Assembly: GCA_902557935.1 (NCBI GenBank)
Contig: CACECJ010000001.1
Coordinates: 124,001 to 188,000 of the forward strand
Length of the DNA stretch: 64,000 nt
Origin: an uncultured Pelagibacteraceae bacterium
GTDB lineage: Bacteria; Pseudomonadota; Alphaproteobacteria; Pelagibacterales; Pelagibacteraceae
Direction: 5' to 3'
Shown here: one piece after another, positions 55,075 through 58,248 of the stretch
How the letters are laid out: each line of letters starts with the position of its first letter
Position numbering within the stretch: position 1 is the first letter of the stretch
Program-made: the position numbers and the translations under genes
The notes under the pieces: generated by a model
Told to the model about the DNA's origin: nothing
The model's input: the letters and a program-made list of their open reading frames with translations, nothing else
Database searches by the model: none

Positions 55075-55470
55075 ATGAAGTTAACAATACCTTATTATTT
55101 ACACAAAGTGGGAGCTGGTTTTCCTTCTCCGGCAACAGATTATATTGAGGACGACATAGATCTAAACTCTCATCTCATAACAAATGCACCAGCTACTTTC
55201 ATTATTAGAGTACAAGGTAAATCTATGACTAATGTGGGTATATATGATGGAGATCTATTAATAGTAGATAAAAGTTTAAGTCCAAAAAATTTCTCCACTG
55301 TTATAGCAAATATCAACGAAGAACTTGTAGTCAAAACTCTGGTTAAAAGTAAGGGCAACAACTACTTAACATCAGGTTCAAAAAACACATCGGATCGAAT
55401 TAATTTAACAGATAATCCAGAAATAATAATTTGGGGAGTAGTAACATATGTCATACACAAACAGCAGTAG
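55075..55470 (+). CDS. umuD: UmuD-like translesion polymerase accessory protein (S24 peptidase)
   Basis: [43 protein letters not shown]; Lys in VVKTL. Confidence 0.9.
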
Positions 55471-56725
55471 AAAAAAAATTGCATTAATTGACTGTAATTC
55501 ATTTTATGTTTCCTGCGAAAGATTATTTAATCCTAAAATACAAAATGTACCAGTTGTAGTGCTATCTAATAATGATGGATGTGTAATATCAAGATCTACT
55601 GAAGCAAAAAAACTTGGAATAAGAATGGGAGAACCATATTTTAAAGTTAAAGATTTAGTTAAAAAGAATAACGTTCAGATATTTTCCTCAAACTATGCAT
55701 TATATGGAGACCTTTCTAGACGAGTGATGAAAGTTTTAAAAGGTTTTACTGATAAAATTGAAATCTATTCTATAGACGAAGCATTTTTAGATTTATCGCA
55801 TATCAAAGATGAACAAGTTGAAGAATATGGAAAACAAATAAGAGAAAGAGTTTTAAAATGGACGGGAATACCAACAAGTGTAGGAATTTCAAATACAAAA
55901 ACTTTAGGTAAAGTTGCAAATCACATTGCTAAAAAAAATAAAGCAGGAGTGATATTTCTAAAAGAAAATATTGATAATATACTAAAAGATTTTGATATTG
56001 CAGATGTATGGGGAGTTGGAAGACAGTTATCAAAACTATATATTAAAAATGGAATAGACAATGCTTATAAGCTAAAAAATATTTCAAACACATGGGTTAA
56101 GAAAAGTACTAATGTTTTAGGTGCAAAAACAGTAATGGAATTAAGAGGAATTCCTTGTATAGATTTAGAAACTGAGGAAACAAGAAGAAAAAGCTGTTGT
56201 GTATCAAGATCGTTTGGAAAAAAAGTTGAGAGTTTAGATAAATTAAAAGAGTCTATAACTACTCATTGTTTAAATGCAGCAGAAAAAATAAGAACAGAAA
56301 AACAAACTACGAGAGCCGTCACTATATTTATAAGAACAAGTCCATTTGATAAAAATAGAAAATACTATTCAAATTCTATTACTATTGAATTGCCGGTGGC
56401 AACCAATAACAGTATTGAACTTGTAAAAACTGCAATTAGCGGACTGGGAAAGATTTATAAATACGGTTATTTCTATCAAAAAGCTGGAGTTATTTTATCG
56501 AAGCTTAGAGACGCTTCTGAAAAAGAGCTAAATTTATTAGCACCAATTTTAGAGAATAAATCTCAAACATTAATGAGAGCAATCGATTTTACCAATGCAA
56601 AATATGGACGAAATGCAATCAGCATAGCTCAAGCTGGTATAAGTAATGATTGGAAAATGAGAAGAGAACACTCATCTAGAATAGATACAGCTTCATTTGA
56701 CTTCCTGCCTAAAATAAATATATAA
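55448..56725 (+). CDS. umuC: Y-family DNA polymerase V catalytic subunit
   Basis: [52 protein letters not shown]. Confidence 0.95.
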
Positions 56726-56730
56726 TTTAT

Positions 56731-56794
56731 ATAAGGGGTGTCATAAAGACTGAGATCATACCCAAAGAACCTGACCGGTAATTCAGTAAGGGAT
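56731..56794 (+). ncRNA. TPP riboswitch (THI element), compact form
   Basis: GGGGTGTC...GACTGAGATCATACCC..GAACCTGACCGGTAATTCAGTAAGGGA matches the thi-box conserved segments in order. Confidence 0.9.
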
Positions 56795-56796
56795 AA

Positions 56797-58248
56797 ATGA
56801 AAGATATATACCTATCAACACAAACAACGCTAACTATTACTCTAGTGGTGGGCGCTTTTTTTATCGCCTTAGGTTATATAAATTTAAAAAAAATTTCAGA
56901 TAATAAAAGCCACATAATTGGTGACAGAAAAGAGAGTGTTTTTTCATTAACAACGAGTTTATCAGCATCTGCCTTGGGAGCTTGGATATTATTCGGACCA
57001 GCTTCAGCAGCAACTTGGGGAGGGATAGGGGCAGTAATTGGATATGCGTTAGGCACAGCTGCACCTATGCTATTTTTACTAAATTTTGGACCGAAAATAA
57101 GGAGAGAGTTTCCTAACGGGATGTCTTTAACTGAGTTTATTAAAAGAAGATTTGGGACAGGAATTTTAAAGATAATGTTAATCTTAATTCTATTTTATTT
57201 GACAATTTTTTTGATAGCAGAAGTCACAGCAATAGCTTTTTTAATAAATTTAATCTCAAAAACACCTTTATGGATAACATCTGGACTAACTTTAATCATA
57301 TGTCTTTTATATATATTAAGAGGTGGATTTAAACTTTCAATTATTACAGATAAATATCAATTTATAATAATTTTAAGCATAATATTATTTTCTATATTTT
57401 TAATTTTAGGAAATTTAGAAATAAATAGTTATGATATGATTAAAAAAAATTCTGCAAAACTTGTAAGTAAAAATTATATTCCAAATTACACTGCTGGATT
57501 GACATTTTTTATTGCTGTAGCAGCAACAAACTTATTTCACCAGGGTAATTGGCAACGTGTCTTTGCTGCAAAAAATAATTTTATTTTAAAAAAAAGTTTA
57601 ATTTACTCATCAATTATATCTTTTTTGATTGTTTTTTGGATGGGCTACACAGGTCTGATATCTTTTTCACTTGATCCTAAAATAAAACCTGATTTAGCTT
57701 TTTTTAAAATAATGTTATCTTATGATAATGTTTTAATAATTGTATCTATTTTAATTTTAGCCCTAGCTTTAACATTAAGTACAACTGATACATTAATAAA
57801 CGCTATTTCAAGTTTAATAATTATTGATGGAAAAGAACTAAATAAATTTTTAAGTGGTAGAGAAATAAAAGATAAATCCAATAAATTAATTTTATTATTA
57901 TGTGTTATTGTTTTTATTTTTGCTTCTAAAGGCTACAGCATCTTATATTTGTTCTTATTTGCAGATCTTCTATGTTGTGCAGCAGTTGTAACAATATTCT
58001 ATGGATTTTTTAAGAAAAAAATTAACACAAGATTGTCTTTAACATCAATTATTCTTGGTTTAAGCTCAGGTTTATTATTTTTCCCAAGTCAAAATTTTCA
58101 ATCAAGTCTTTTAGTAGGTAATATTATGTCTATAGAAAATTTTAGTCCAATTGTCTTATCAAACTTATTATTTATTTCGTTTTTTGTAGCTATAATTGTA
58201 CCACTTGTAATAATCACAACTCACTCTTTACGTAATTCATTAAGATAG
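56797..58248 (+). CDS. thiV: Sodium:solute symporter family transporter, putative thiamine-precursor (HMP) transporter, ThiV-like
   Basis: SSS-type TM protein; TPP riboswitch directly upstream; symbol by analogy to SAR11 ThiV. Confidence 0.75.
   Translation: MKDIYLSTQTTLTITLVVGAFFIALGYINLKKISDNKSHIIGDRKESVFSLTTSLSASALGAWILFGPASAATWGGIGAVIGYALGTAAPMLFLLNFGPKIRREFPNGMSLTEFIKRRFGTGILKIMLILILFYLTIFLIAEVTAIAFLINLISKTPLWITSGLTLIICLLYILRGGFKLSIITDKYQFIIILSIILFSIFLILGNLEINSYDMIKKNSAKLVSKNYIPNYTAGLTFFIAVAATNLFHQGNWQRVFAAKNNFILKKSLIYSSIISFLIVFWMGYTGLISFSLDPKIKPDLAFFKIMLSYDNVLIIVSILILALALTLSTTDTLINAISSLIIIDGKELNKFLSGREIKDKSNKLILLLCVIVFIFASKGYSILYLFLFADLLCCAAVVTIFYGFFKKKINTRLSLTSIILGLSSGLLFFPSQNFQSSLLVGNIMSIENFSPIVLSNLLFISFFVAIIVPLVIITTHSLRNSLR

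Follow-up and report, generated by a model that had tools for sequence, protein, structure and literature searches.

Few RNA sensors have been studied as well as TPP riboswitches, in which the dinucleotide C77-G78 is treated as a near-invariant holder of the ligand's pyrophosphate. SAR11, a group of very abundant marine bacteria, depends on scavenged HMP. The highly conserved positions of the TPP aptamer comprise U39-A43 in J3-2, U59 and A80 in P4, G60, and C77 and G78 in J5-4; G60, C77 and G78 bind the metal that holds the pyrophosphate, and of these three only G78 touches the pyrophosphate directly (PMC3764141). A TPP riboswitch in front of SAR11 thiV is already known (PMC2704228, PMC4260697, PMC11452348). 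In Candidatus Pelagibacter ubique, Meyer 2009 located it in the intergenic region 786467-786574, between SAR11_0810 and SAR11_0811 (PMC2704228). Which ligand the SAR11 switch is specific for, and whether it is active, are still to be confirmed (PMC11452348).

We analysed a copy of this element in a 64,000-nucleotide stretch of Pelagibacteraceae DNA, referred to below as the window. With the E. coli thiM TPP riboswitch (2GDI) it shares P2, the UGAGA T-loop of J3-2, P4, the UNRN loop L5, the GGGA of J2-4, G60 and a target gene in the thiamin pathway. In contrast to a canonical TPP riboswitch, it lacks C77-G78 and the J4-5 loop, its P3 has only 3 bp, and the Shine-Dalgarno sequence lies inside P4. 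The Ca. Pelagibacter ubique element before SAR11_0811/thiV is the same element in the same place before the same gene family, and the HTCC1062 copy (L142) is likewise devoid of C77-G78; the window copy comes from another genus and has an A-U rather than a U-A closing pair. The HMP-PP riboswitch (thiS motif, PMC6478431) has the thiamin-precursor theme in common but is a different RNA.

Results

A TPP-family aptamer below the Rfam gathering score

Infernal cmscan of a 211-base stretch returned an RF00059 match spanning the full model (model positions 1-105) at 45.8 bits and an E-value of 2.9e-8. It was also the sole RF00059 match in the 926,619-base genome (assembly 83% complete), with an E-value of 3.0e-8 in the genome-wide search. 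Because its score falls under the curated RF00059 gathering score of 54.3 bits, the aptamer is overlooked by a default Rfam scan, which reported tRNAs as its sole output for the window and did not list the TPP element. This is the rule in the order: among 252 Pelagibacterales genomes with an RF00059 match, 242 stay below 54.3 bits and 10 exceed it, whereas 124/131 genomes with a match in the class sample do. Routine Rfam annotation at default settings will thus overlook almost all SAR11 copies of the TPP family.

The first-pass annotation of this DNA had described a TPP riboswitch with ordered thi-box segments starting at 56731. Every segment was found in the order it gave, namely GGGGTG (56735-56740), CTGAGA (56750-56755), ACCC (56760-56763), GAACCTGA (56767-56774), GGTAAT (56777-56782) and AGGGA (56789-56793), and the RF00059 search that it proposed as a check yielded the full-model match described above, below the gathering score as this is. 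The element is therefore real, with the boundary moved slightly upstream, to near 56724 (Table 1). By descent it belongs to the TPP (THI-box) riboswitch family. The assignment to TPP as ligand is not established by this descent, since C77-G78 is missing; because a defining feature of the class was looked for and is absent, we class the element as a variant derived from the TPP family and stop short of calling it a proven TPP riboswitch.

More than 140 related loci carry the same element before the same gene. Column identity averages 95% in the P4-P5 arm versus 59% in the 5' flank, and the alignment of 80 unique variant aptamers from several genera contains 35 invariant columns while the flanks vary. 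Across the pairs of the structure, 1040/1040 cells hold standard pairs, compared with 57 to 60% when partners are slid by one column. The very short P3 pointed out in the first-pass annotation was recovered as a 3-bp helix. In the window copy the UNRN loop L5 (UAAU, 56779-56782), U59 (56772), G60 (56773) and A80 (56789) are all present, and G60 is kept in 79/80 variant aptamers. P1 is a weak helix overlapping the start codon; its complementarity (mean 4.39) is barely higher than that of permuted partners (4.11), and we make no claim for it as a regulatory helix. By free energy the aptamer folds no better than shuffled sequences do (z about +0.9), a result that can be expected when ligand and tertiary contacts hold an RNA together, yet is not support. 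A tandem HMP-PP riboswitch was rejected: within 56650-56860 the thiS-motif covariance model matched nothing at E-values up to 10, and the umuC coding sequence ends directly upstream.

Table 1. Features of the variant riboswitch and the gene behind it (positions of the window).
Feature	Position	Strand	Remarks
TPP-family (THI-box) riboswitch	56724..56810	+	bounds are those of the full RF00059 model; core aptamer 56735-56793
P2, P3 and J3-2	56735..56763	+	P2 is 56735-56737 with 56761-56763; no P3a
P3, 3 bp, GTC-ATAAA-GAC	56740-56742 with 56748-56750	+	pairs covary U-A/C-G and C-G/U-A
J3-2 pyrimidine pocket TGAGA (T-loop)	56751-56755	+	CTGAGA invariant in 80/80 variant aptamers
Remodelled P4-P5 arm	56770..56791	+	canonical J5-4 dinucleotide C77-G78 absent (E. 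coli numbering)
P4, CCT/AGG	56770-56772 with 56789-56791	+	
G60 opposite R79	56773 opposite 56788	+	
P5: A-U, C-G, C.A, G-C, G.U	56774-56778 with 56783-56787	+	loop TAAT 56779-56782
AAGGGA, 3' P4 strand and J2-4, probable Shine-Dalgarno	56788..56793	+	AGGGA ends 3 nt before ATG 56797
thiV-like sodium:solute symporter gene, 483 aa	56797..58248	+	Pfam SSF (PF00474) 8.4e-11, above gathering score

The P4-P5 arm lacks C77-G78

The arm of the window copy reads CCU-G-ACCGG-UAAU-UCAGU-A-AGG, and the Infernal alignment deletes the C-G dinucleotide that the model places between P5 and P4. C77-G78 is absent from 80/80 unique variant aptamers. The pair 56774-56787, which occupies the place of the canonical J4-5 internal loop, is AU in 52, UA in 26 and GU in 2 of these 80; the C.A mismatch in P5 is invariant (80/80), and P4 is separated from the loop by 6+6 nt versus 8+8 in canonical aptamers. 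The minimum-free-energy single-strand fold yields the same arm. In three copies from genus g7 (L115, L122 and L148) the corresponding segment is GATTGG-TAAT-KCAATT, with CG likewise absent. An alternative parse with a 3x3 J4-5 loop (GAC/GUR) and a shortened P5 is disfavoured, since 56774-56787 covaries as a Watson-Crick pair and the g7 copies have five consecutive pairs at that place; even under this parse the C77 position would be G and the G78 position U or A.

The dinucleotide is present in 18 canonical aptamers of the SAR11 order, and it precedes N-AGG in 29/29 parsable TPP loci of other Alphaproteobacteria. These controls were the 30 highest-scoring TPP loci, one of which (L207) was misparsed by the pattern and left uncounted, so rarer departures from CG may exist elsewhere in the class. 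CG is also kept in the f2 family (thiB-like genes), in genus g8, in L109, L110 and L160, and in each of the six ThiV-linked aptamers from non-SAR11 bacteria and g5 that were parsed and checked. Canonical TPP aptamers precede ThiV both in SAR11 (L109, L110, L138, L160 and L219) and in proteobacteria outside it (L220-L223, L225 and L226); they serve the same transporter family and, unlike the variant, all keep CG. The idea that a short P3 makes up for the reduced P4-P5 arm was rejected as an explanation, because P3 is equally short in canonical g8 aptamers and longer in the CG-less g7 copies. We found no published account of the missing C77-G78 in the literature covered.

The downstream gene encodes a ThiV-like symporter

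The window protein shares 51% identity with the thiV product of genome G066. The TPP match of G066 (786499-786587) fits the intergenic site of Meyer, and we therefore take this genome as HTCC1062 and the gene as SAR11_0811/thiV (PMC11452348). The nearest protein relatives, at 98% identity, come from single-cell and metagenome assemblies that carry the label Pelagibacteraceae; all of the best 80 matches are SAR11. In a tree of 33 SSS proteins, a branch with 100/99 support separates the SAR11 and best-matching non-SAR11 proteins from E. coli PutP, PanF and ActP and from a second SSS group. TPP riboswitches at gathering score lie upstream of seven of the fifteen related loci outside the main set, or of 7/11 when counted among non-variant relatives, and each of the seven falls on the ThiV side. 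The split and these riboswitches upstream of its relatives mark the symporter as ThiV-like and not as a proline or pantothenate transporter; this bears out the ThiV assignment of the first-pass annotation, and the nesting with proline/pantothenate transporters that it had named as contrary evidence was not seen. In fold family, riboswitch association and phylogeny the protein resembles the ThiV/SSSP symporters (PF00474), with no marked difference.

The substrate-site residues in SiaT numbering are Tyr78, an acidic residue at 139 and Phe254. Candidate substrate-site residues Y83, E142 and F247-H248 are invariant in nine SAR11 ThiV proteins. The product of 56797-58248 is probably an HMP importer, HMP being the substrate suggested by the literature, where its uptake is known only at the level of the host, HTCC7211 (PMC11452348).

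Two observations concern the surroundings of thiV. umuDC-like genes (Peptidase_S24 and IMS polymerase, window 55075-56725) end 9 bases before the GGGG of the aptamer, so that transcripts of thiV might come from an SOS-type operon or start at a promoter within umuC. On another contig, CACKXF010000001.1, two full-length thiV genes (L051 and L053) have identical upstream aptamers, which points to recent duplication or to an artefact of assembly.

The probable Shine-Dalgarno sequence lies within P4

In 114/146 variant loci AGGGA is followed by exactly 3 nt before the gene starts, and in 146/146 this gap is 2 to 5 nt; the start codon is ATG in 177/178 loci of all aptamer types. The kept 3-nt spacing makes it likely that AGGGA serves as the Shine-Dalgarno sequence, as the first-pass annotation had proposed. 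Non-SAR11 ThiV genes are arranged similarly (CGGAGGA, then about 8 nt, then ATG), and several of the canonical ThiV-linked aptamers have a P4 AGG near enough to the start to act as Shine-Dalgarno; the placement inside P4 is thus not peculiar to SAR11. The anatomy points to a translational OFF switch for thiV. With AGGG sitting in P4 and paired with CCU, the ligand-bound fold would cover the ribosome site directly, and hiding it would not need a separate expression platform.

The variant is inherited with one ThiV clade

The exact variant pattern occurs in 226/279 Pelagibacteraceae genomes that are at least 85% complete and in five of nine genera. Outside SAR11 it was not seen among the 399 genomes of a phylum sample, in which the window's own genome was the only match, and IMG/VR gave no match; spread by phage or wide horizontal transfer was rejected on these two results. 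In the ThiV tree all sampled CG-less copies form one group (99/98) and all CG-bearing SAR11 copies form another (97/96), its sister clade. The two separate groups are consistent with one loss of CG that was inherited with the gene.

Not every aptamer of the order precedes thiV. In genus g9 (L150, L151 and L152) a CG-less aptamer stands before a gene for an NMT1/THI5-like protein of 289 aa with no obvious signal peptide, a second gene family behind the variant switch; its family name would suggest a function of the pyrimidine-supply type. In genus g8 (L114 and L139) a canonical TPP aptamer precedes a gene for a non-ThiV protein of 223-225 aa with an apparent signal peptide.

Thiamin pathway of the host

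thiC was not found in the 15 Pelagibacterales genomes tested, the window's genome included. The result agrees with the known HMP auxotrophy of SAR11 (PMC11452348), on which the first-pass annotation had also drawn. The window's genome has thiE, as do the other Pelagibacteraceae tested. In 61 genomes of the window's genus (g1) no ThiL match exceeded the curated cut-off, and the weaker matches have PurM/PurL lengths. TPK was not found in the Pelagibacteraceae genomes tested; the observation on ThiL and TPK also concerns G190, G076, G065, G090, G061, G196 and G293. TMP may accumulate in the window's genus, as no ThiL above cut-off was found there, nor TPK in the members tested; loss of thiL has been reported only for subclade IIIa (PMC10030771). 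Loss of thiL as the cause of the variant was rejected, because HTCC1062 has both thiL and the variant.

Discussion

We favour, at a probability of roughly 0.8, the reading of this element as a TPP-family switch that turns off translation of a gene for HMP import and in which the phosphate site has been remodelled. The pyrimidine pocket is standard and would recognise the pyrimidine moiety as usual, while the phosphate site appears to have been rebuilt: a covarying pair closes J4-5, and C77-G78 has been lost. With the pocket kept and C77-G78 absent, the other end of the ligand would have to be contacted in a way unlike that in known TPP aptamers. The loss might also be without effect on the choice of ligand.

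What the switch senses divides this reading into two. It could be an ordinary TPP riboswitch of good affinity, whose J4-5 deletion represents streamlining that another arrangement of Mg2+ and phosphate compensates; we put this at just short of an even chance. The rest of the aptamer is canonical, SAR11 RNAs tend to be shortened (PMC2704228), and the same logical input would serve both aptamer types, because canonical SAR11 aptamers (L109, L110, L138 and L160) control the same transporter family. This has to be set against the identity of the lost bases, which rank with the most conserved positions of the class and include G78 with its direct pyrophosphate contact (PMC3764141), and against the retention of CG in 5/5 short-P3 canonical SAR11 copies, including those with a shortened 5' J4-5. 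To judge from sequence, the variant may instead have changed its ligand in most SAR11 to a pyrimidine vitamer that lacks the complete pyrophosphate (HMP, thiamin or TMP), which we consider a tentative and somewhat less probable proposal. A phosphate site lost selectively beside a fully kept pyrimidine pocket is what a change of ligand is expected to look like, but does not prove one. Such a change would also agree with fixation of the variant across several genera, with its inheritance in one ThiV clade, with the supply of pyrimidine by the genes behind it (thiV, and the NMT1/THI5-like gene in g9), and with the possible accumulation of TMP in the window's genus. HTCC1062, which has thiL together with the variant, and G190, which has the canonical form without thiL, break this last pattern, so that aptamer type and thiL are uncoupled.

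Two further explanations depart from the favoured reading altogether. Control by an intrinsic terminator, at the level of transcription and not of translation, would agree with the published proposal, phrased as thiV transcription being turned off (PMC11452348); it is nonetheless highly unlikely here, since the 3 nt that separate the end of the aptamer from the start codon leave no room between aptamer and gene for a terminator hairpin and U-run. We give still less credence to a decayed, non-functional riboswitch whose sequence persists through its overlap with the ribosome-binding site. The sub-threshold score, the loss of normally conserved bases and the weak P1 would be in keeping with decay, but 80 distinct sequences retain the 35 invariant columns beside variable flanks, the pairs of P3 and P5 covary with 100% of cells paired, and the pyrimidine pocket is invariant though it lies outside the ribosome site.

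Should the switch, read as an OFF switch for HMP import, bind TPP without the known phosphate contacts, the structural rule for this class would have to be revised. Should another vitamer gauge the B1 supply of SAR11, models of HMP uptake and B1 cycling would change. A changed ligand would make the element a natural variant within the TPP riboswitch class that has altered ligand specificity and is linked to HMP import.
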